This document shows, piece after piece, positions 32,208 to 42,307 of a stretch of DNA of 64,000 nucleotides. Made by a program: the position numbers and the translations under genes. The stretch is taken from IMG/VR virus record IMGVR_UViG_3300047666_001259, positions 41,909-105,908 of that record. One strand, written 5' to 3'. Every line of letters begins with the position of its first letter. Position 1 is the stretch's first letter. Source of the stretch: a virus. The notes under the pieces were generated by a model. It made no database searches. It saw only the letters and a program-made list of their open reading frames with translations, and was not told where the DNA came from.

Positions 32208-32417
32208 ATGAATGTAAAAGAAAAAACCTTCAAAATGGTGGACTGGAATGATATATTACCTATAGTTCCTGAACACAGTTATTTATGGGACGTTGGAAAT
32301 GATTCCTTCACCATTTACTTTATTAATGATCCCAGTGAAGAAGATGATCCTATCTCTAAATTTCTTATTGAGAAATATGATAATATTAGTGTGGGGGATT
32401 CAATATTAATAGGATAG
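32208..32417 (+). CDS. Small acidic hypothetical protein, 69 aa
   Basis: Tryptophan- and aspartate-rich (MVDWNDILPIVPEHSYLWD). 22 nt after the previous stop and 6 nt before the deoxynucleotidase gene. Not recognised. Confidence 0.5.
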   Translation: MNVKEKTFKMVDWNDILPIVPEHSYLWDVGNDSFTIYFINDPSEEDDPISKFLIEKYDNISVGDSILIG

Positions 32418-32423
32418 AACAGA

Positions 32424-32858
32424 ATGACAAAGAAGAAAAAGAAAATAGTACAAATTGATCTTGACGGAGTTATGGTCGATTACATGGAGCAAAAGGAAAA
32501 CGGCTCTCTTCACCAAGATGAAAGAGGCTTCTTTTTGACAATGAGACCAATAGTTGGAGCTGTAGATGCTTATCACAGACTTCATTATAGTGAAGAATAT
32601 GAACCTTACATTCTTTCTACCGCACCTTGGAGCAACACTTGGTCTTGGATGGAAAAAAGAATCTGGGTCGAAACTTTTATTGGTGAGAAAGCTTTTAAGA
32701 AGCTCACTTTGACTCATAACAAAAACTTAGTCATAGGTGATTATTTAGTCGATGATAGACCTTTTAATGGTGCAGCTGAGTTTACGGGAGAATGGATTCA
32801 AATGGGTTCGGAGAAATTTCCAGACTGGGACGCAGTGTTAGAATATTTAGGAGTATGA
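32424..32858 (+). CDS. 5'(3')-deoxyribonucleotidase-like HAD protein
   Basis: 144 residues. HAD motif I is DLDGVMVDY (residues 12-20); STAPWSNTWSWMEKRIWVE is the NT5C-type cap/motif II region; THNKNLVIGDYLVDDR contains motifs III and IV. This is the pattern of mammalian dNT-1 and phage YorS-type enzymes, which dephosphorylate dUMP/dTMP or other dNMPs. It would tune the dNTP pool together with the MazG-like and kinase genes. Confidence 0.8.
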   Translation: MTKKKKKIVQIDLDGVMVDYMEQKENGSLHQDERGFFLTMRPIVGAVDAYHRLHYSEEYEPYILSTAPWSNTWSWMEKRIWVETFIGEKAFKKLTLTHNKNLVIGDYLVDDRPFNGAAEFTGEWIQMGSEKFPDWDAVLEYLGV

Positions 32859-33079
32859 GATACTTTAAAAGGAAATTCAAAACCACTCAAGGAGTTAGGT
32901 TAGCTATCTTCCTGAAGAGACCTTATGATTGGGTTAGATTAAAGCTAGAAGGACAATCTATACTTTCTCACAAGTATAGTTATTCTCTCATTGGTTTTGG
33001 GGAGTATCAAGGAAGATATAAGATAGTAAATTTAATCATTACTCAAGAGATGATTGATGATATAAAAAAAACAATTTGA
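32855..33079 (+). CDS. Small basic hypothetical protein, 74 aa
   Basis: ATG overlaps the deoxynucleotidase stop as ATGA. Begins MRYFKRKFKTTQGVRL; basic N-terminal half, beta middle (KYSYSLIGFGEYQG). Not recognised. Confidence 0.55.
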   Translation: MRYFKRKFKTTQGVRLAIFLKRPYDWVRLKLEGQSILSHKYSYSLIGFGEYQGRYKIVNLIITQEMIDDIKKTI

Positions 33080-33162
33080 AGAATCATTTTTAAAACTTGT
33101 CCATATAAGAAACTTATCAGTCGAGCAGAGAAAGCTCTAGAATTATAATAAAACCAAAAACA

Positions 33163-33372
33163 ATGAAAGAATTTAATACCATAGGAACTATTACATTTGA
33201 TTTCAGTATCGATGTTGAAGCCTTAACGGAAGAAGAAGCTGAAGCAAAAGCGTTGGAGATAGTTAAGAATTATTACCACCTAAGCGTTACTGGTGCATAT
33301 CATCAAAAAGATGAAATAAAAATCAAACACCTAGACACAGGAGTTTCTCGAAATATTCAGACGGAATTTTAA
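33163..33372 (+). CDS. Small hypothetical protein, 69 aa
   Basis: A beta-alpha-beta pattern (TIGTITFDFSIDVEA, EEEAEAKALEIVKNYY, then EIKIKHLD) like many small phage proteins of the same fold. Not recognised. A weak GAGC/GCTC hairpin precedes it. Confidence 0.5.
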   Translation: MKEFNTIGTITFDFSIDVEALTEEEAEAKALEIVKNYYHLSVTGAYHQKDEIKIKHLDTGVSRNIQTEF

Positions 33373-33432
33373 CAGAACGGCTTTGATTTGCAACAAATAA
33401 TTTTTTCTTGCGTTAAATAAAAAAAATTTAAC

Positions 33433-33939
33433 ATGCAAATAAAACTAAAAAGTAATAGTTTAAAGAATCTTTCATTTATCTTTGATGCTCTTGGAACGTT
33501 AAATTTATCTTACGAAGATGAAGTAAGTATCAACCAGCATTTAAATTCAATAAAAATTGATATCCACCATCTTCAATATAAAGGAGAATTTGATGGTGAT
33601 AAATTTATAGATTTTATTGATCGAGTTAAGTTTGTTAATAATCTAGAAATCAAACACCCTAACTGCTTAGCTGAGAGGATATTTGCTTTAGATATATTAA
33701 AATCAAACGGTGTTGATTTATCTCAACCAAAAATAGGTGAATACGAGGTGGTTAAAAAAAAGTCGAGCGAGAGATTTTTTCAAAAATCCTCTGGTAATAT
33801 TAGTAGTGTTTTTAGTTTTGTAAACCTTGTTGGTGACAAATTAATTTTCAGTTCTATCACTATAAATAAGTTTAGTTCATTTGAGATAATAAGTAAAATT
33901 TTAATTGATAAGGTTGAAAATTATAAAACTCAAAACTAA
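33433..33939 (+). CDS. Hypothetical protein, 168 aa
   Basis: Lysine- and serine-rich alpha/beta protein (IKLKSNSLKNLSFIFDAL; YKGEFDGDKFIDFIDRV). Sits just before the NAD operon. A repeated GATTTGCAACAAA occurs on both sides of the gene (33384 and 33953) and may be regulatory. Not recognised. Confidence 0.5.
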   Translation: MQIKLKSNSLKNLSFIFDALGTLNLSYEDEVSINQHLNSIKIDIHHLQYKGEFDGDKFIDFIDRVKFVNNLEIKHPNCLAERIFALDILKSNGVDLSQPKIGEYEVVKKKSSERFFQKSSGNISSVFSFVNLVGDKLIFSSITINKFSSFEIISKILIDKVENYKTQN

Positions 33940-34007
33940 TTCTTTGCGAAACGATTTGCAACAAAACGATAAATAATACGTTAAAGAGGAAACAAACAAG
34001 TAAATAT

Positions 34008-35282
34008 ATGACTCACAAGGAGCTAACAAACATCGAAGGAAGGTATACGCAGTCAACTATTGATGACGATTTATATAAGCTGAACATGCAGTACGCAGCC
34101 TTTGTTCTTTTTCCAAGAGCTAAAGTTCAATATAAGTACATCCTTCGATCTGATGTTAAATTCCCAAAAGGATTCGGAGCCGTCCTGAGAGACATCATCC
34201 ACCAATATTCTGGACTTACTGCTCCAGAAGGTGCAGAAGAGTTTCTTAATAGAAGATGTGGGTATTTACCTCCTACTTTTATAAACTTCTTATTGAATTT
34301 CCGTTTCAACCCTTCTGAGGTTGGAATTATTCAACATAAAGATGGATCAATTGAAATTGATATCGAAGGATACTTTTTCTCAGCTATTAGATGGGAAGTA
34401 ACTTTGATGGCAACAATATCTGAGCTTTACTTCCTAATGACGGGAGAGGCTGATAAGATTGATATCGAAAGAATGAACAATTCTGGAGAAAAAGCAAGTC
34501 ATCTTAGATTGCATGCAATCAAGTTTGCTGAATTTGGAACTCGAAGAAGATTCTCTTATAAAAACCAACTTCATACAGTTAAAGAATTGAAGAGAACTGG
34601 TTGGGACAGTTTTATCGGAACATCTAATGTTCACATCGCCATGATGGAAGATTTAACTCCAATTGGAACTCAAGGTCATGAGTGGTTCATGTTTCACCTA
34701 GCCATGTATGGTGCTAGAATGGCAAATGTCATGGGAATGAGAAATTGGGCTGATGTCTTTAATGGAGACAACGGAATTATCCTTCCTGACACATTTACTA
34801 CTGATGAATTCTTAAAAGTATTTGACAAAAGAATGTCTAAGCTTTATGATGGATCAAGATGGGATTCTGGAAGCTATAAGGATTTCACCGACAAATTCGT
34901 TGAACATTACAAAAAATTCAAAATAGATCACACTTCTAAACAATATGTTTACAGTGATGGGATTAACTCTTTACAAAAGTGTTATGATATCGTAAGCTAC
35001 GGAAATAAAGTTCACGATATTCCTAGATCAAACTTACCTTTAGGTATCGGAACTTGGTTTACCAACGACTTTGAAGGAATCACTCCTTTGAATCAAGTAA
35101 TCAAAATGTGGGCAGCACAACCAATCGAAGACGGAAGGTGGATTGATGTTTGTAAAATTTCTGACTCTTTCGGTAAAGTTACTGGAGAGAAAGAAGAAGC
35201 GGACTTGACTATGAAGGTGCTTGGGGTTAATTTAGAAGACCTTCAGAAAAAGAGTGAAGAAGCAGAAGTGTCAGAAGTATAA
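34008..35282 (+). CDS. pncB: Nicotinate phosphoribosyltransferase (PncB)
   Basis: 424 residues. Characteristic segments: DDDLYKLNMQYAAFVLFP near the N-terminus, AEFGTRRRFSYKNQL (about 175-190), GTSNVHIAMMEDLTPIGTQG then HEW, whose histidine is the phosphorylated catalytic residue, and WDSGSYKDF (PRPP-contacting region). The enzyme makes NaMN from nicotinic acid and PRPP with ATP hydrolysis, the first Preiss-Handler step. The Preiss-Handler assignment (not NAMPT) rests on EFGTRRR and PIGTxxHEW. First gene of the NAD operon. Confidence 0.85.
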   Translation: MTHKELTNIEGRYTQSTIDDDLYKLNMQYAAFVLFPRAKVQYKYILRSDVKFPKGFGAVLRDIIHQYSGLTAPEGAEEFLNRRCGYLPPTFINFLLNFRFNPSEVGIIQHKDGSIEIDIEGYFFSAIRWEVTLMATISELYFLMTGEADKIDIERMNNSGEKASHLRLHAIKFAEFGTRRRFSYKNQLHTVKELKRTGWDSFIGTSNVHIAMMEDLTPIGTQGHEWFMFHLAMYGARMANVMGMRNWADVFNGDNGIILPDTFTTDEFLKVFDKRMSKLYDGSRWDSGSYKDFTDKFVEHYKKFKIDHTSKQYVYSDGINSLQKCYDIVSYGNKVHDIPRSNLPLGIGTWFTNDFEGITPLNQVIKMWAAQPIEDGRWIDVCKISDSFGKVTGEKEEADLTMKVLGVNLEDLQKKSEEAEVSEV

Positions 35283-35692
35283 TGGAAAAAATGGGAAGCA
35301 AATTAACACATAGATTTACAGTATTTCCTCAAGACACCAACAATCTCCAAACTTTATTTGGAGGAAAATTGATGGCTGAGATGGATTTAGCAGCAGCAAC
35401 TCTTTGTAGAAAGCTTTTGATAACATCTGAAGCAGAAGGAGCGGTTACTGCATCTTTCTCTAGGATTGATTTTACAGCACCTGCTCATGTGGATGACTTA
35501 ATCGAAATCAAAGCTGAGTTAAAGATGATTGGAAAATCTTCATTGAGGATACGGTTGGTGGCTTCAAAAGAAGACCCAGACGGAAAGGTAATAAAAATTG
35601 GGAGTTCTAACGCAACTTTTGTATCTTTGAAAGAAGGGAAATCTTTTCCTCATGGAATTAACTGGAACAATGTATGTTCCGAATACTTTTAA
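35282..35692 (+). CDS. Hotdog-fold acyl-CoA thioesterase-like protein
   Basis: 136 residues. The pattern NNLQTLFGGKLMAEMDLAAA, TASFSRIDFTAPAHVDDLIE and IGKSSLRIRLVASKE matches single-domain YciA/acyl-CoA-hydrolase-type hotdog proteins; the catalytic Asp near position 40 (EMD) is present. It overlaps the pncB stop by one base and precedes nadD by 3 nt, so it is fully embedded in the NAD operon. A CoA-ester substrate is predicted from the family; its tie to NAD metabolism is unexplained. Confidence 0.75.
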   Translation: MEKMGSKLTHRFTVFPQDTNNLQTLFGGKLMAEMDLAAATLCRKLLITSEAEGAVTASFSRIDFTAPAHVDDLIEIKAELKMIGKSSLRIRLVASKEDPDGKVIKIGSSNATFVSLKEGKSFPHGINWNNVCSEYF

Positions 35693-35695
35693 AAT

Positions 35696-36334
35696 ATGAT
35701 TACAATAGGTTTATATTTCGGATCATTTAACCCGCTCACGAGAGCGCACTACAAAATTGCAGAACATTCTTTGACTCATTTGGATGAAGTTTGGTTTGTG
35801 GTTTCTCCCGCCAATCCTGATAAGGAAGCAACTGGAGAGTTAGAAGATGCTAGTCATAGGCTTGAAATGGTTAAAAGAACAGTGGATTTCTATAATGAAA
35901 ACAAGAAATCTGTAAACCTATTTGCTTCTGATGTAGAGTTTCATCTTCCTAACCCATCTTGGACTGATTCTTCAATTAAGAAGATTAAAGAAGAGCTTCT
36001 TAGAGATCGAGGTTTGAATGAGGGTGAATATGATCTTCGAATCATTTGTGGTCGTGACACTCACTACAGAATTCAAACTTGGAAGAACAAAGATTACATT
36101 ATTGACAACTGTAGTTTCTTGGTTTATGACCGTGCTGGAGTTGATTCAGTAGAAGACGAAGCTCTTCATCTAAAGAGTTATTATGTTAATGATCTTGGCA
36201 TCCTTCCAATATCTTCTACAATAGTCCGAGAGACTATTCATAAAGGAGGAGAAATATTTAATCTCGTCCCAGATGTCGTTGACTGTTACATTAGAGAGAA
36301 CGGCTTGTATCCTTACAAAACTAAGAAACGATGA
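35696..36334 (+). CDS. nadD: Nicotinate mononucleotide adenylyltransferase (NadD-like)
   Basis: 212 residues. Nucleotidyltransferase motifs: GLYFGSFNPLTRAHYKIAE (GSFxP and TxxH form of the first motif), ICGRDTHYRIQTW (substrate pocket) and LPISSTIVRETI (ISSTxVR). It adenylates NaMN to NaAD. The T in place of the first His of HxGH is a known variant. Between the thioesterase and an 87-aa gene, with four-base overlap to the latter. Confidence 0.85.
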   Translation: MITIGLYFGSFNPLTRAHYKIAEHSLTHLDEVWFVVSPANPDKEATGELEDASHRLEMVKRTVDFYNENKKSVNLFASDVEFHLPNPSWTDSSIKKIKEELLRDRGLNEGEYDLRIICGRDTHYRIQTWKNKDYIIDNCSFLVYDRAGVDSVEDEALHLKSYYVNDLGILPISSTIVRETIHKGGEIFNLVPDVVDCYIRENGLYPYKTKKR

Positions 36335-36594
36335 TCCCAATAGATATAGAACATGAACTCTATTATGATCGTGGCAAGCCTGAGTTAAGAGAGAGAACTC
36401 GTAATAGATTAATTAAGATGAAAGAGGTTGGGATGGAAGCATACCATAACTATCAATTCGGTTATGAAGGTGTGATGTCAGGTCTTTGGATTGAAAGAGT
36501 TTGGGGCTTTAGTGAAGAGAGATGGAATAAATACATGAAATGGGCAACGGACTTAATTAAAGAGAAAACAGATGAAGCTACTAAGGTGTCCTAA
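36331..36594 (+). CDS. Small hypothetical protein in NAD operon, 87 aa
   Basis: Charged, helical protein (RTRNRLIKMKEVGMEAYH; WGFSEERWNKYMKWATDL). Its ATG overlaps the nadD stop and its end overlaps the NadE fusion by 23 nt. Could be a stabilising partner of the operon enzymes; unsupported by homology. Confidence 0.55.
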   Translation: MIPIDIEHELYYDRGKPELRERTRNRLIKMKEVGMEAYHNYQFGYEGVMSGLWIERVWGFSEERWNKYMKWATDLIKEKTDEATKVS

Positions 36595-37930
36595 TTGTAA
36601 TGACGTTATCCGTTTAGTTCATATTGAATGGAGAACTTGTGAGTGTGGAGGTTGTGGAGGTCAATATAATAAAGACCTCATGAGCGCAACCATCGGAGGG
36701 AAATGCGATGTAATTGGGCTATCAAATTTATTCTTCAACGAAGACTTTAGAAAAAAGACTTGGGAAGAAAAAGTGGAATTCAGAAAAGAAATTAACCATT
36801 ACCCCGCTGAGATTTGGTTCGGAGAGATGCAAGGCGACAATCAGATCATTCGTATTGAAGACCCTAAAGGTGGGAGAATTGAAATGGATGTAGAGTTTGA
36901 CCCAGAGAGTGAAACTACTAAATCAATCATCACAGACAAAAGAAATTATTTTGTTAACCTTGCTGACGATACAAAGCCGAAAGAATTAATTATTCATAAT
37001 AAAATGGTTCCGTCTTTTAGAGATGCTGAAATGAGATTGGGAGGAAAGTCTTCCGCTGTTGAAGCCATAACAGATAGAACAAAAGAACAAAAGAACAATA
37101 ACATGGAGACAATCAATTACGAAGAAGTAGCAACCCATATTACCAAGTGGTTGAAAAATTACAGCGTAAAAGCTGGGGCTAAAGGATATGTTCTTGGTAT
37201 TTCAGGAGGAGTGGATTCAGCGGTAGTTTCTACTTTGTGTGCCAGAACTGGACTGCCTCTAACTTGTTTGGAAATGCCGATCCACCAAAACGAAGAACAT
37301 GACACTCGTGCTGCAAGACATATTGATTGGCTTGAAGAAAATTTTGATTACGTAACAAGAGAAAGAGTTGATTTGACAGCAACTTTCGATTTGTTCATGA
37401 ACTCAAACAGTATTATTCAAGGTGGGGACATGTCCGCTGTTCGGCTAGCAGGAGCCAACGCCAGAAGTAGACTTAGAATGGTTCAGCTTTACTTAATAGC
37501 TTCAATCAAGAATATGTTGGTCTGCGGTACGGGAAACAAGGTTGAAGATTTTGGTGTAGGATTCTATACTAAGTACGGTGATGGAGGAGTTGATGTAAGT
37601 CCAATTGCAGACCTTTTAAAGACAGAAGTTTGGGGATTGGCAAAACACCTTGGAATAAACGAAGAAATCGTTTCTGCCATACCTTCAGATGGTTTGTGGG
37701 GAGATACTAGATCAGATGAAGATCAGATTGGAGCCTCTTACCCAGAGCTTGAATGGGCAATGGCTTATATCGATAAAAATTACACTGACATTTCAATGGG
37801 GGTTCATCCTTACAATGATGTTACGGAAAGACAAATGGAAGTAATTGACATTTATAGAGGATTCAATTCTCGAAACCAACACAAGATGGTAGAGATTCCC
37901 GTTTGCGATGTTTCTAAATTTAGAAATTAA
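36572..37930 (+). CDS. nadE: Zinc-ribbon fused to NH3-dependent NAD synthetase (NadE)
   Basis: 452 residues. Residues 1-45 carry CPNCN and CECGGCGG, a zinc-ribbon pattern followed by an unknown 110-residue domain resembling stand-alone phage proteins. Residues about 178-452 are an NAD synthetase of usual length (275): the ATP loop SGGVDSAV (about 211), CGTGNKVEDFGVGFYTKYGD and VSPIADLLKTEVW. It amidates NaAD to NAD+ with ammonia; no glutaminase domain is present. An in-frame ATG at 37103 (residue 178) could also produce NadE alone. Last step of the Preiss-Handler route. Confidence 0.85.
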   Translation: MKLLRCPNCNDVIRLVHIEWRTCECGGCGGQYNKDLMSATIGGKCDVIGLSNLFFNEDFRKKTWEEKVEFRKEINHYPAEIWFGEMQGDNQIIRIEDPKGGRIEMDVEFDPESETTKSIITDKRNYFVNLADDTKPKELIIHNKMVPSFRDAEMRLGGKSSAVEAITDRTKEQKNNNMETINYEEVATHITKWLKNYSVKAGAKGYVLGISGGVDSAVVSTLCARTGLPLTCLEMPIHQNEEHDTRAARHIDWLEENFDYVTRERVDLTATFDLFMNSNSIIQGGDMSAVRLAGANARSRLRMVQLYLIASIKNMLVCGTGNKVEDFGVGFYTKYGDGGVDVSPIADLLKTEVWGLAKHLGINEEIVSAIPSDGLWGDTRSDEDQIGASYPELEWAMAYIDKNYTDISMGVHPYNDVTERQMEVIDIYRGFNSRNQHKMVEIPVCDVSKFRN

Positions 37931-38313: not shown

Positions 38314-38475
38314 ATGAGTGGTTATGCGTTGTATAATAACAACTGTGCTGAACCCACTTGGTTACTTACTGAGTTTAATTATTTAAAAGAAACAACAAAT
38401 ATTAAATTCAAAAAATACTTTGGATATAAATTAACTGAAGAAGAAAGCGTTGTGTTTTGCTATGAAAATGATTGA
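38314..38475 (+). CDS. Possible truncated gene, 53 aa from internal ATG
   Basis: An open frame continues upstream of the ATG to about 38260 without a start codon (GRGTAANEIMSGYALYNNN), suggesting a gene that has lost its 5' end. It ends within the first arm of a large inverted repeat. I treat it as a fragment of a former cassette gene; the alternative is a start at a rare codon. Confidence 0.35.
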   Translation: MSGYALYNNNCAEPTWLLTEFNYLKETTNIKFKKYFGYKLTEEESVVFCYEND

Positions 38476-38576
38476 TATAATGAGTGAGACACTAAGGAGT
38501 GCAAAGGGAGTGCCTAATGGCTCTTTTCGGTGTGCCGATGACGAATGTATGTTATCCCCCTCTCATTCATTATATC
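38474..38576 (+). repeat. Inverted repeat, 16-bp arms, one mismatch
   Basis: Arms GATATAATGAGTGAGA (38474-38489) and TCTCATTCATTATATC (38561-38576) are reverse complements except for one position, separated by 71 nt. Followed by TTGTTATTGTG, similar to the 3' core of neighbouring attC-like sites. May be the first, degenerate recombination site of the array or an extended hairpin. Confidence 0.5.
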
Positions 38577-38662
38577 TTTTGTTATTGTGCGTTTTAATAC
38601 ACTCTAACGGTTTGTGTATGGGTATTTTTTGCCCGATTTAATAATAACTAAAATTTAATAAA

Positions 38663-38785
38663 ATGACTGAGGAAATTAAGCAATTACTGATTGACTGTGC
38701 AAACTTTATCCAACCGTATGATGATGGAGGAAACGAAGCTGAAAGGTTAATGATAAGACTTGATGAAGCACTAAAGCAAGGGTAA
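38663..38785 (+). CDS. Cassette ORF, 40-aa protein
   Basis: ATG to TAA, beginning MTEEIKQLLIDCANFIQ and ending ALKQG. Just upstream GTGTATGGGTA (38615 region) is nearly the reverse complement of TACCTATACAC after the ORF. This is the first unit of the array in which the front and back ends look paired. Function unknown. Confidence 0.5.
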   Translation: MTEEIKQLLIDCANFIQPYDDGGNEAERLMIRLDEALKQG

Positions 38786-38886
38786 TAATTACCTATACAC
38801 GTTGTTGTATGTCTTTTTTAATTGCATACAATATGTTGTATGTGCCGTTATGAGGCACGAGCAATGAATTTTAAACCTTGTTAGGC
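38786..38886 (+). repeat. attC-like site, composite
   Basis: Contains stem TTGTATG...CATACAA (near 38803 and 38825), a second hairpin GTGCCGTTATGAGGCAC and ends with the core GTTAGGC (38880-38886). It looks like two attC halves in series, perhaps with an empty cassette between them. Confidence 0.5.
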
Positions 38887-38897
38887 ACTTTACGATA

Positions 38898-39089
38898 ATG
38901 GATAAGATGGAATCATTCACGTACAAAGGCTTCAAGGTAGACCCAACTTGTTATAACTATGGTTTTGAATGTATAGTTCAAGACGAAGCACCAAAGCTAT
39001 TTGGTATGTCTATAAATGGCATCAAGTTAGAGATTGACGAATGGATTAAAAAAGAAAAAAGGGAAGGGGAAAACTTAGAGTACCTATAA
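38898..39089 (+). CDS. Cassette ORF, 63-aa protein
   Basis: Begins MDKMESFTYKGFKVDPTC. A small beta-alpha protein with three cysteines or so and a charged C-terminal helix (GIKLEIDEWIKKEKREGEN). First of two ORFs in one unit, so this unit may be a fusion of two cassettes. Not recognised. Confidence 0.55.
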   Translation: MDKMESFTYKGFKVDPTCYNYGFECIVQDEAPKLFGMSINGIKLEIDEWIKKEKREGENLEYL

Positions 39090-39106
39090 AATTAAAGACA
39101 AATAAA

Positions 39107-39412
39107 ATGAACGAATCAAAAGAAATGATGGGGGAGCAATGTTTAACCGAAAAACAAACATTAAAAACCTCTTTAGAAAAATTAAACCAAAGAAACTATG
39201 AACTGAATGATATTGCGTCATTAAGTTCTCTATTAGTAGAAAAATTCTTTAACCCTAATAACGAGCCTAGAGATAATCAAGGTTCTGATAGAGAAAAAGA
39301 AAGACAGCCTGATAATATAGTTGAAGTTTTTGACGAGGTATCTAAAAAGCTTGGTAATAACATAAACACTATTGGGAGCAATTTGCAAAGAATATTGGCA
39401 ATAATGGAATAA
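39107..39412 (+). CDS. Cassette ORF, 101-aa coiled-coil protein
   Basis: Charged helical protein: EKQTLKTSLEKLNQRNYEL, a polar linker rich in Asp/Arg, then a C-terminal helix ending LQRILAIME. The stop codon runs directly into the attC-like site (ACCAAC). The layout resembles small phage coiled-coil proteins, but the function is unknown. Confidence 0.55.
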   Translation: MNESKEMMGEQCLTEKQTLKTSLEKLNQRNYELNDIASLSSLLVEKFFNPNNEPRDNQGSDREKERQPDNIVEVFDEVSKKLGNNINTIGSNLQRILAIME

Positions 39413-39496
39413 CCAACTTGTGAGCGTGGGCTTTTTCTTATTAGCAGAATGTTTGATTTGAAACTGAATTTAGCCCATGACTTACAACGTTTAGGC
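39411..39496 (+). repeat. attC-like site
   Basis: Starts ACCAAC and ends AAC followed by GTTTAGGC (39489-39496). Arms GTGAGCGTGGGCT (39420-39432) and AGCCCATGACTTAC (39472-39485) pair with interior mismatches, as in attC bulged stems. Confidence 0.65.
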
Positions 39497-39530
39497 TAAG
39501 GTTAGTAGCCTTTAATACTAACCATTAAAT

Positions 39531-39575
39531 TATAACAAGACCTATTGAGGCTATTAATTTTAGCCATTGTTAGGC
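39531..39575 (+). repeat. Short attC-like site
   Basis: TATAAC at 39531, stem GGCTA...TAGCC, core GTTAGGC (39569-39575). The preceding 70 nt carry another small inverted repeat (GGTTAGTA/TACTAACC) but no ORF, so an empty or decayed cassette lies between this and the previous site. Confidence 0.45.
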
Positions 39576-39585
39576 ATAGTTTATT

Positions 39586-39789
39586 ATGGAAGCAAGAGAA
39601 TTTTACGACAAAAGAATTAACGAAGAACCGACTATTGGAAGCGTACAGTTAATGGAAGAATATGCAAAACATATTATTGAAATTAACTTTTGTGATGGCT
39701 CTCCTATTGAATTTAACAAACTATCGGTTGAGCAACTAAAAACAATTCACAAAAATATAAATAAGTGTGTCGATTGGGTTAACTCCTAA
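39586..39789 (+). CDS. Cassette ORF, 67-aa protein
   Basis: Begins MEAREFYDKRINEEPTIG, 11 nt after the core GTTAGGC. Helical, acidic, with a C-terminal EQLKTIHKNINKCVDW. The front core and the back GCCTAAC (39794) are exact complements for seven bases. Not recognised. Confidence 0.6.
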   Translation: MEAREFYDKRINEEPTIGSVQLMEEYAKHIIEINFCDGSPIEFNKLSVEQLKTIHKNINKCVDWVNS

Positions 39790-39793
39790 TTGT

Positions 39794-39924
39794 GCCTAAC
39801 GGAATTGTATAAGGTTTCGTTACGTAGATTAAATAATAAATTAACAAATAAAAACTGAATTGTGATTAAGCAAGAAAATAATAAACAAACAGAAATTAGT
39901 AATGAACTTTATACGGTGTTATGC
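39794..39924 (+). repeat. attC-like site, 131 nt
   Basis: Best example of the array: GCCTAAC (39794-39800, RYYYAAC) at the left, GTTATGC (39918-39924, GTTRRRY-like) at the right, and arms GTATAAGGTTTCGTTAC (39807-39823) and GTAATGAACTTTATAC (39899-39914) pairing with few mismatches and small bulges. The loop is about 75 nt. Confidence 0.7.
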
Positions 39925-39933
39925 CCCGTTAAT

Positions 39934-40200
39934 TTGTTTAGGTACTTCCTTCGCAAGCAATACAAAGACGTTGAAATTAGTAACGAAGAATGCGATGAAT
40001 TAAACACAGACTTTCACAAACACTTAACAAGCCTAAAGTTAAGCGAAAAGCAAAAGGAAAACATAATGCCTAAAAGTGAAATAGATGTAATAATGAACTC
40101 TGAACACCCATTAAGAATGGATGGATTTAGCCCTGCTTATGTTTTTCATTTTGGTGAATATATAAAAAGTAGAGCAGTCGCATTGGCTAATGGGGCATAG
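39934..40200 (+). CDS. Cassette ORF, about 88-aa protein, TTG start
   Basis: The frame extends upstream to a GTG at 39862, but that part lies inside the attC-like site, so I place the start at TTG 39934, the first in-frame initiator within the cassette. The product is helical and charged (QYKDVEISNEECDELN; HLTSLKLSEKQKENI), ending in a FHFGEYIKSRAVALAN segment. Not recognised. Confidence 0.55.
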   Translation: MFRYFLRKQYKDVEISNEECDELNTDFHKHLTSLKLSEKQKENIMPKSEIDVIMNSEHPLRMDGFSPAYVFHFGEYIKSRAVALANGA

Positions 40201-40212
40201 CTGTTGTTATCG
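40192..40212 (+). repeat. Collapsed attC-like junction
   Basis: GGGGCATAGC (complement of GTTATGCCCC at the front of the same unit, 9/10) abuts GTTATCG (40206), the front of the next unit. The stem normally between the two cores is absent, suggesting deletion between cores. Confidence 0.5.
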
Positions 40213-40265
40213 GCAGTTTAATTGAAAAATATCAAAAAGTTCGCAATAAAAATCAGGAGCAATTT

Positions 40266-40394
40266 ATGACTCAATTTGGAAATGAATATTCTATATCAAA
40301 CGCACTTTTATTGGAAGAAAGAGATTGTTGCGACAGATTTATAGAAGATTTGAAAAAACTGCCGATAACGGCTGATGATAAACAATCGTTTTAA
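40266..40394 (+). CDS. Cassette ORF, 42-aa protein
   Basis: Begins MTQFGNEYSISNALLLEE and ends in the attC-like site, whose sequence encodes its last residues. The open frame continues upstream to the core without another ATG. The unit has a perfect 14-nt complementary pair at its ends. Not recognised. Confidence 0.5.
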   Translation: MTQFGNEYSISNALLLEERDCCDRFIEDLKKLPITADDKQSF

Positions 40395-40417
40395 TGTTGT
40401 TTATCATTTGTTATGTG
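40364..40417 (+). repeat. attC-like site, 54 nt
   Basis: GATAACG (40364-40370) and GTTATGTG (40410-40417) flank a hairpin with perfect arms TGATAAACAA (40376-40385) and TTGTTTATCA (40397-40406) and an 11-nt loop. Short, compact form similar to short attC sites. Confidence 0.7.
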
Positions 40418-40525
40418 TAGGTGTGGTTAATTAAGGTAGAATGTTTAATCGGAGAACTGAACAAAAATTTTAAAAGAAAAAGAAGGGTTGATTTTAAAAT
40501 TTGAATATTTATATATAAACATATT

Positions 40526-41044
40526 ATGAGTGAAGATATGAGAAAAATGATTGATAAAGCTAAGAACTTTAATCAGTTTTTAAATGAAAACGAAAATTTA
40601 ATGAACCAAATATTAGATAAAATTAGTTCTAATGGTATAACATCATTAAATACTGGTGAATTAAAATATTTGAAACAATATTCTTCTGGACAAATAAATC
40701 CAGATTTAGAAAAAGCACTTCAAGTTGAAAGTGGTTTTGTTTTTGTTTCAAAAAATATACCACTGTTAAGATTTGAATATAATTTCACCGAAGAATCAGA
40801 TGAAGAATATCAAAAAATGCTACACAAAGGAACCGTTTATATTGACGGATTAGAATTTGATGGAGATATTTATTGTGATGAAAATGGAAAATATGAAGCA
40901 TTCGATTTTCACACATATCAATCCAATGATGATGGCACAACTGACCAAATAGAAGATTTAGCTTACTATGATGATGAGTTAGATGGTAAGATAGAAAAAT
41001 TCTTTAAAAATGAAGTTTCTCCTTACTTAACCTATTCATTTTAA
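40526..41044 (+). CDS. Cassette ORF, 172-aa protein
   Basis: The largest ORF of the array. Helical N-terminus (MIDKAKNFNQFLNENENLM), a segment LNTGELKYLKQYSSGQ that resembles a helix-turn-helix-like surface, and an acidic beta-rich C-terminal half with IYCDENGKYEAFDFH. A 108-nt leader precedes it with TTG and TATTTATA elements that may form its own promoter. It lies in a unit with 11/12-matching ends. Function unknown. Confidence 0.6.
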   Translation: MSEDMRKMIDKAKNFNQFLNENENLMNQILDKISSNGITSLNTGELKYLKQYSSGQINPDLEKALQVESGFVFVSKNIPLLRFEYNFTEESDEEYQKMLHKGTVYIDGLEFDGDIYCDENGKYEAFDFHTYQSNDDGTTDQIEDLAYYDDELDGKIEKFFKNEVSPYLTYSF

Positions 41045-41093
41045 AAAGTTGGCGGGATTTTTCTTTTAAAATTTTCAACCGAAATGTTGATTA

Positions 41094-41133
41094 GAACGAT
41101 AAACGGAACGATAAACGGAACGATAAACGGAAC
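41094..41133 (+). repeat. 12-bp tandem repeat, 3.3 copies
   Basis: Unit GAACGATAAACG repeated three times plus GAAC, between the end of the 172-aa ORF and the following attC-like site. Possibly replication slippage or binding-site array. Confidence 0.8.
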
Positions 41134-41138
41134 ACTTA

Positions 41139-41237
41139 CACATAACGTTAAGTATATGGTTTTGTAAGCCATAGCAGAAATTTACAAATTAAAAACGAAT
41201 ATTAATTAGGCTTATAAACTATATACATTGTTGTGTG
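41139..41237 (+). repeat. attC-like site, 99 nt
   Basis: CACATAACG at 41139 and GTTGTGTG at 41230-41237 frame arms GTATATGGTTTTGTAAGCC (41152-41170) and GGCTTATAAACTATATAC (41209-41226), which pair along nearly the whole length with two or three bulges. Confidence 0.7.
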
Positions 41238-41270
41238 TAATACGGGATTTAAGCCACAAACTTTATAAAA

Positions 41271-41453
41271 ATGCAAAGAAAGATAAATTGCAAACACAAC
41301 AACATGGGTGCTTGGTGTACCAACAAGGATATAAAACGCTCATTGTTTGGTATAGGTGCAAGATGTTGTACTGAATTTAATGACAAAAAATGTGATTTAA
41401 AAGAAATTAGAACAAGGAAAGGCAAGCCGCCACCAAGACCAACGAAAGCGTAG
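41271..41453 (+). CDS. Cassette ORF, Cys-rich zinc-binding-like protein
   Basis: 60 residues with CKHNNMGAWC, then GIGARCC and FNDKKCDLK; five cysteines and a histidine suggest a zinc site. A proline- and arginine-rich tail (RKGKPPPRPTKA) follows. I recall similar small Cys-rich proteins in Bacteroidota. Ends in the 13-nt complementary back end of its unit. Confidence 0.6.
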   Translation: MQRKINCKHNNMGAWCTNKDIKRSLFGIGARCCTEFNDKKCDLKEIRTRKGKPPPRPTKA

Positions 41454-41490
41454 TATTACACACAATGTTATGGATATGGATTGATTTTTA
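41453..41490 (+). repeat. Partial attC-like site
   Basis: GTATTACACACAA (41453-41465) is the exact complement of the unit's front end at 41231-41243, followed by GTTATGGATATGG resembling the left stem of the 41139 site. No right-hand stem or core was found before the next ORF, so the site looks truncated. Confidence 0.5.
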
Positions 41491-41512
41491 ACGGATAAAT
41501 AAACACAGAATT

Positions 41513-41851
41513 ATGAATATAGACGAAGAAAATAAAGCAAAAGAATTTTACATTAAGAGTGCTATAAATGGCATTCATACACCACGAACTAATATGGTTG
41601 AGATAAACTATTTAGATATGCTAAAGCTAATGCACTCTTACAGCCAAGAGGTAGTTAAAAATTTATCTATATCTGGTGTTAAGAACTGGGTGGCGGTTAA
41701 AGACTCTATGCCCGAAAATTGCGACCAAGTTTTTGTAAAGTATGAAAATGGCAAATATGGAATAAATGAATGGTGGAAAAGTGATGATTGCTGGAAATAC
41801 CAATTTGATAATATGATAGTAAAAGAATGGTGTAAGCCACCTTGTTCTTAA
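41513..41851 (+). CDS. Cassette ORF, DUF551-domain protein
   Basis: 112 residues. The C-terminal half has the DUF551 pattern: WVAVKDSMPENCDQVFVKYE, KYGINEWWKSD and a final EWCKPP. DUF551 is a small domain of unknown function frequent in phage and mobile genes. The stop codon is part of TTCTTAACG, the start of the next attC-like site. Confidence 0.75.
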   Translation: MNIDEENKAKEFYIKSAINGIHTPRTNMVEINYLDMLKLMHSYSQEVVKNLSISGVKNWVAVKDSMPENCDQVFVKYENGKYGINEWWKSDDCWKYQFDNMIVKEWCKPPCS

Positions 41852-41915
41852 CGTCTCGTATATGGTGTCGGAATTTTATTTTTCTTAAAATTATGCATTA
41901 TATACTTTGTTACCA
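41845..41915 (+). repeat. attC-like site, 71 nt
   Basis: TTCTTAACG at left, GTTACCA (41909-41915) at right; GTATATGGTG pairs with CATTATATAC in between. The left stem shares GTATATGG with the 41139 site. Confidence 0.6.
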
Positions 41916-41951
41916 ATAGTACGGATTTTAATAACTAAATTTAATATGAAA

Positions 41952-42006
41952 ACAATAACTTCAATTATAGCACTAGCTAAGGCATTTTTTATATTGCTTG
42001 TTAGGC
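41952..42006 (+). repeat. Short attC-like site
   Basis: CAATAAC near 41952 and core GTTAGGC (42000-42006), with a short AAGGCA...TTGCTT stem between. No ORF lies between this and the previous site apart from read-through, so a decayed or empty cassette. Confidence 0.4.
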
Positions 42007-42032
42007 GTAGTGCTTCTTTACCGCAAGTCTTA

Positions 42033-42227
42033 ATGACTAAAAATGATTTTGAATTAGTTTTAAACCACTATCTACTAAATTATTGGGATATAAAACATGA
42101 AAATATTGATGGATTTGAACATTTAACAATTCAAAATCATTTACCATTTTATAAAAAAAGGTTTGAAGAAATGAAAAAAGTAATTGATGAACGCAAGATT
42201 ATTCGTGTGATGGTGCATTACACCTAA
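42033..42227 (+). CDS. Cassette ORF, 64-aa protein
   Basis: I start at ATG 42033 (MTKNDFELVLNHYLLNYWD). A longer frame with upstream starts at 41907 or 41946 reads through an attC-like site, giving a spurious hydrophobic leader. The protein is helical and Lys-rich with HEHLT-like and RFEEMKKVIDERK segments. Ends fit the unit: front GTTAGGCGTAGTGC, back GCATTACACCTAAC (12/14). Confidence 0.55.
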   Translation: MTKNDFELVLNHYLLNYWDIKHENIDGFEHLTIQNHLPFYKKRFEEMKKVIDERKIIRVMVHYT

Positions 42228-42274
42228 CACTGGAATAGATTGCGTTTCAATGCAACTCTATGGAATGTTAAAGC
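42222..42274 (+). repeat. attC-like site, last of the array
   Basis: ACCTAAC (42222-42228, perfect RYYYAAC) and GTTAAAGC (42267-42274). Arms ATAGATTGC (42235-42243) and GCAACTCTAT (42252-42261) pair with a small bulge. Followed by AGCAC...GTGCT and then the phage gene at 42308. Confidence 0.65.
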
Positions 42275-42307
42275 ACGTTTTAATGTGCTAAATTTTAAAT
42301 TCATAAA

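Follow-up and report, generated by a model that had tools for sequence, protein, structure and literature searches.

The 64,000-nucleotide stretch of viral DNA analyzed here (the window) carries an integron-type cassette array without an integrase. The reading that we favor, with a probability of roughly 70%, is that the array belongs to a Bacteroidota phage and is built of mobile units, each a hairpin together with the gene downstream of it, on which a host recombinase works in trans. A marine member of the Flavobacteriaceae is the most likely host. The array extends over positions 38450..42300 (+ strand; the left edge is uncertain) and consists of short ORFs, all on the + strand, with imperfect hairpins between them; the original prediction had already described such one-strand ORFs, and they were seen at 38.6-42.28 kb. 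No match to a tyrosine integrase (PF00589) was found anywhere in the 105,908-base (105.9 kb) record that contains the window, a record that may be incomplete, and the earlier claim that no integrase accompanies the array thus holds over more than the window. The array is accordingly a CALIN (two or more clustered attC sites, no integrase) and not a complete integron, for which an IntI gene would stand beside it.

The array lies directly 3' of what we take to be an NAD+ synthetase gene, and the region immediately upstream (window 34008-37930) presumably encodes an NAD+ salvage set (NAMPT-like protein, NMN adenylyltransferase and NAD+ synthetase), these genes having been identified by sequence recognition. 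A possible degenerate site was noted at the left edge of the array (38536-38587), and just left of the array a 16-base inverted repeat, GATATAATGAGTGAGA...TCTCATTCATTATATC, surrounds about 75 bases (window 38474-38580). This repeat had no match in Rfam, nor did an Rfam scan over the window return any family; a plasmid search with the array as query gave no match, and the search for relatives of the flanking genes matched none for the 154-aa and 397-aa proteins. The closest relative (L001) stops within NadE, just before the position of the array, and a further sequence (L398) is the same phage as the window's (100%); gain and loss of units were for this reason compared in the phages P12002L and P12002S and not at the window locus.

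Reading from the left, a 40-aa ORF in the first unit (38663..38785) is followed by hairpin S1 (38795..38841), which folds, is a weak model match (12.1 bits) and has CAC in place of AAC in R'', and by a partial attC (38851..38884) whose 34 bp recur unchanged in Maribacter phage Panino and a viral contig of 388 kb, the identity stopping at the GTTA core. Two ORFs of no family, of 63 aa (38898..39089) and 101 aa (39107..39412), precede hairpin S3 (39482..39575; 28.1 bits, E 2.5e-4), which resembles a hairpin of Cellulophaga phage phi17:1 (blastn 80%). A 67-aa ORF (39586..39789) then leads to the long-loop hairpin S4 (39794..39924), an exact match to the attC pattern used on bacterial genomes, of a class common to Flavobacteriaceae chromosomes and phages PTm1 and JQ. 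The frame of a 112-aa ORF (39862..40200) opens within the S4 loop, and at its end lies the degenerate site S5 (40195..40212), in which the back end abuts the next front without a hairpin arm. The best site, S6 (40363..40416; CGTTTTAATG loop; 54.7 bits, E 5.3e-11; folding z -4.7), is succeeded by a 172-aa ORF with a DUF6576 segment (40526..41044; PF20216, Pfam E 5.4e-7), hairpin S7 (41140..41236; 28.8 bits), a 60-aa Cys-rich ORF of no family (41271..41453) and the half site S8 (41455..41480), made up of R'' and L'' only. A cassette front (GTTAAGAAC, 41678) falls within the next ORF, of 112 aa (41513..41851; weak PHROG 924 match, E 9e-4), and beyond hairpin S9 (41846..41915; 28.9 bits) another ORF (41947..42227) starts within a hairpin region and crosses the R' core at 42000. 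The last hairpin, S11 (42222..42273; 9.3 bits, with a fold and the front/back pair 42000/42228), is followed by GTTAAAGCACGTTTTAATGTGC. All of these features are on the + strand, and S1, S4 and S11 have weak model scores or were read by eye.

A hairpin after each back end, as the original prediction had it, is present in most units, but the sites at about 38850, 40200, 41460 and 41990 are degenerate or truncated. Of the two proteins that it singled out, the DUF551 protein was not borne out, as Pfam gave no DUF551 match, and the Cys-rich protein exists as the 60-aa ORF, with no Pfam match. Frames that open in the attC loop and cross the R' core were seen at window 39862-40200 and 41947-42227 and at 832-1032 of another phage locus (L087); in the frames beginning at 39862, 41947 and L087 832, the cassette protein may owe its N-terminus and its start codon to the attC site.

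The sites were scored with a covariance model of our own (R1), not with the published IntegronFinder or HattCI models. R1 was built from 12 sites, with zero window sequence, taken from Tenacibaculum phages PTm1 and JQ, Cellulophaga phage phi17:1 and two uncultured large phages, all collected by blastn. Against the 64 kb window it gave four matches (best E 5e-11), all on the + strand within the array and no others, and against 1.3 Mb of other phage DNA it gave a single off-array match (L009); the integron-like character claimed for the array is thereby upheld. A loose hairpin scanner of our own had as many matches outside the array as inside, and the covariance model was substituted for it. The R''-L''...L'-R' architecture with its AAC/GTT core is carried by these four independent matches and by covariation of the arms (0.64 vs 0.20 in shuffles), which is strong in the inner arms. 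In the R arms, the three outer pairs mostly fail to pair in place, as is expected if R'' and R' come from different units.

The complementary unit ends of the original prediction were recovered as eight front/back pairs (38611/38803, 39569/39800, ~39918/40204, 40206/40369, 40410/41146, 41230/41466, 41678/41852 and 42000/42228). The true pairing of fronts and backs as reverse complements reaches 75 of 96 identities, a total that includes one pair out of register, and it is the sole arrangement to do so among 40,320 permutations. The number of front/back repeats alone (29 vs 22.8 in shuffles) is not significant in AT-rich DNA; what counts is their position beside hairpins. Terminal repeats of transposons were rejected as an explanation because a single composite hairpin, with covarying arms, is common to adjoining units; terminators were rejected because host and phage conserve the hairpins on opposite strands.

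Outside the window, the genome of this phage contains another, better-preserved array of about eight units (record 32,360-34,690; locus L390 12,220-14,690). One gene of this array (55 aa, MAKTREQKRIENADKVC...) has copies of 93-96% amino acid identity in three other viral contigs, of which one is 388 kb long and two are identical there, and a fourth contig has one of 71%. Compared with the 93-96% copies, the DNA is homologous as far as the unit edges, beginning about 40 bases ahead of the ATG and stopping about 5 beyond the stop codon. Relatives differing by whole units, which the original prediction had named as support, were found in the sister Polaribacter phages P12002L and P12002S. These are 99.7% identical up to GGCTAACG, where P12002S has three extra units that close at the next AACG. 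Then follows one stretch common to both, which ends exactly at TTACAACG, and from there each phage has a hairpin and gene of its own. Compared with P12002L, P12002S thus has three additional units and one that is replaced. DNA methyltransferase genes were observed as repeated cargo of phage cassette units, in JQ (L083) and P12002S (L396).

Turnover of this kind might come from homologous or replication-slip recombination between similar hairpins alone, with no site-specific recombinase acting on phage DNA, and we regard this explanation as unlikely. The compensating changes in the arms and the unit-specific R boxes point to site-specific events, and so do the sharp AAC breaks between hairpins that are unlike in sequence. 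A 66.8-kb viral contig (G036), moreover, has a 274-aa IntI/XerA-like recombinase of its own (L387 9049-9873) directly after five attC-type sites, although the phage studied here and most other attC-bearing records have none. The junction of the large P12002S/L deletion agrees with such recombination, since it lies inside the hairpin, a few bases in, in the spacer/L'' arm and not exactly at AA|C; homologous recombination may have contributed to this deletion and fits its junction equally well.

The attC pattern, representing one site class, was found in at least 119 stretches across 84,980 bacterial and archaeal species, and nearly all of the matches listed were titled Flavobacteriaceae or other Bacteroidota. 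A tyrosine recombinase was present in all 35 genomes examined, mostly of 375-420 aa and in some genomes of 270-290 aa. When aligned to IntI1, the flavobacterial recombinases share the core and the IYTHV...SPLD end, with a gap at IntI1 ~200-245. Their best integron-integrase matches omit model positions 180-239 (the TIGR02249 match skips these positions and scores below the 265-bit cut-off), and the IntI-specific additional domain near patch III is not present. Scores against NCBIfam NF040815 (220-bit cut-off) were 235 and 226 bits, just above the cut-off, and 203 bits, just below it; we name these enzymes XerA/IntI-like, not IntI, because they stand at NF040815 and below the IntI cut-off. In a recombinase tree, which has long branches and no XerA rows, they may group with IntI against XerC/D (100/99).

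Sites were found in 15 of the 20 20-kb regions around the XerA/IntI-like recombinase and in none of 20 control regions around XerC/D-type recombinases from the same families, and in each of the five site-free regions the contig breaks off close to where the recombinase gene ends (3'). Flavobacterial assemblies (G018, G009, G031, G032, G028, G011 and many others) repeatedly stop shortly after this gene on its 3' side, as if arrays had defeated short-read assembly. In host regions checked by hand the geometry is constant: in gene direction, the recombinase comes first and is followed by genes with a site after each. Among 81 Flavobacteriaceae genomes, 59 have the recombinase, and the pattern occurred in 24 of these 59 vs 2 of the 22 without it, an association that genome size confounds; the reversed-pattern control gave 0/81. 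Host arrays obey the front/back rule as well, 106 of 198 adjacent site pairs matching at 6-7 of 7 bases vs 5.8 expected.

The site is asymmetric (AAC, 5-6 bases, stem, 3 bases, GTT). When all sites are set in this orientation, the genes on both sides were minus at 102 host sites and both plus at 1, whereas at phage sites they were both plus at 31 and both minus at 0; the sites of P12002L have the same polarity as those of the window phage. The oriented strand was the better fold in 142 of 146 host sites and 39 of 42 phage sites. Canonical integrons recombine via the stably folding bottom strand, and by this rule the fold and polarity counts indicate that host arrays conform and phage arrays invert. 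Homology between viral contigs set in at the AAC, spanned the hairpin and continued into the gene downstream of it in 15 pairs, which amount to about four independent events, and took the opposite direction in 0; the hairpin thus tracks the downstream gene (15:0) and is not a standard attC at the 3' end of its cassette gene. Break-point counts in bacteria showed no clear preference (5 vs 2), and the 34-bp site common to the window and Panino breaks at GTTA, not at AAC. The leftmost gene of the window array lacks a clear hairpin, which taken alone favors standard polarity, but this argument was given no weight because the left edge of the array is degenerate. The diagnostic attC cassette layout of the original prediction is therefore right as to the sites, but the hairpin goes with the downstream gene, opposite to host cassettes.

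Somewhat less probable still than recombination between hairpins alone is that the array is an ordinary CALIN: the phage would have taken up part of an integron from a host chromosome, and its cassettes, of the standard form (hairpin 3' of the gene), would now be static or decaying. Phage CALINs are known, and 5 of 6 phage attCs tested were functional with IntI1 (PMC9892861); the degenerate window sites and the hairpin that follows the last gene of the array would also fit. Yet the polarity of phage genes relative to the hairpin is opposite to that of host arrays (0:31 vs 102:1), units are common to several phages, and the 23-base core of the Panino-shared hairpin was absent, in an exact search, from the scanned bacterial genomes. 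It is very improbable that the hairpins are not DNA recombination sites but RNA elements, serving translation control or termination from the 5' leaders of phage genes. In phages they do stand ahead of genes, on the coding strand, and the frames of some ORFs begin in the loop (39862, 41947; L087 832). Host arrays, however, have the same hairpins, of the same asymmetry, on the non-coding strand, where 142/146 fold better, and there the hairpins obey the front/back unit rule.

Taken together, the hairpins with compensating changes, their presence beside the recombinase in Flavobacteriaceae chromosomes, the unit rule, the sharing of units by unrelated phages, their turnover between sister phages and the opposite polarity of host and phage may be considered established as far as sequence can do so, and phages probably trade a separate cassette pool of reversed polarity via a host recombinase in trans. 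Under our favored reading, cutting of the mobile phage unit (hairpin plus downstream gene) would take place in the arm with the long spacer, at its AA|C core, and the best-folding strand would be coding in phages but non-coding in hosts. In an infected cell, the host recombinase would work in trans on the coding strand of phage DNA in its folded form, and further deletions would arise by homologous recombination from hairpin to hairpin. In keeping with an enzyme supplied in trans, no tyrosine recombinase is present in three complete site-bearing phages (JQ, phi17:1 and PTm1). As a guess at the inverted polarity, the coding strand could be the one exposed under heavy phage transcription. More tentatively, and at somewhat less than even odds, Bacteroidota would hold a widespread integron class using an IntI-like recombinase without the IntI domain, and phages would keep a parallel pool of reversed polarity (hairpin first, gene second), exchanged among unrelated phages, jumbo phages included, with the borrowed host enzyme. 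Integrons are known mainly from Proteobacteria, and the IntI-specific domain is held to be essential. If the arrays are driven by the flavobacterial recombinase, a major marine family possesses an integron class of its own, current tools log these arrays at best as CALINs, and the IntI-specific domain is not essential. The reversed polarity would mean that phages run a gene exchange of their own on borrowed host machinery, a possible route for lytic phages to swap small genes, DNA methyltransferases included.

Qi et al. 2023 describe 17 CALINs in phages, P12002L included, with sites active in an IntI1 assay (PMC9892861). The cassette cluster of a lytic phage that the original prediction considered unusual is thus real, but its kind was already published. 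The CALINs of virulent phages in that work resemble the window array in their attC-type sites, short cassettes, lack of an integrase and lytic phage; the window phage differs in having two arrays and units common to other phages, and arrays in Flavobacteriaceae, a recombinase of the host and a reversed polarity of the genes are not mentioned in the text consulted. IntegronFinder 2.0 reported almost no integrons in Bacteroidetes, with a complete one only in Salinibacter ruber (PMC9024848), and the openly licensed literature yielded no account of the flavobacterial system, of a recombinase without the patch or of the phage polarity. What goes beyond published phage CALINs is the presence of the hairpins beside a recombinase in host chromosomes, their opposite polarity there, and the movement of the hairpin with the downstream gene. 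Canonical integrons (IntI, attI and attC: class 1, Vibrio, Shewanella) likewise have R''-L''...L'-R' hairpins, a GTTRRRY-type core and the front/back rule. In contrast to them, the phage array lacks IntI and has the gene on the other side of the site, and the flavobacterial host recombinase lacks the IntI-specific domain; the spacers are 5-6/3 nt here vs about 3/3 in Vibrio and Shewanella phage-borne arrays. The closest named family is NF040815 (recomb_XerA_Arch, 'site-specific tyrosine recombinase/integron integrase'), near whose cut-off the flavobacterial recombinases score, but most of them have an N-terminal extension of ~100 aa and adjoin attC-type arrays.
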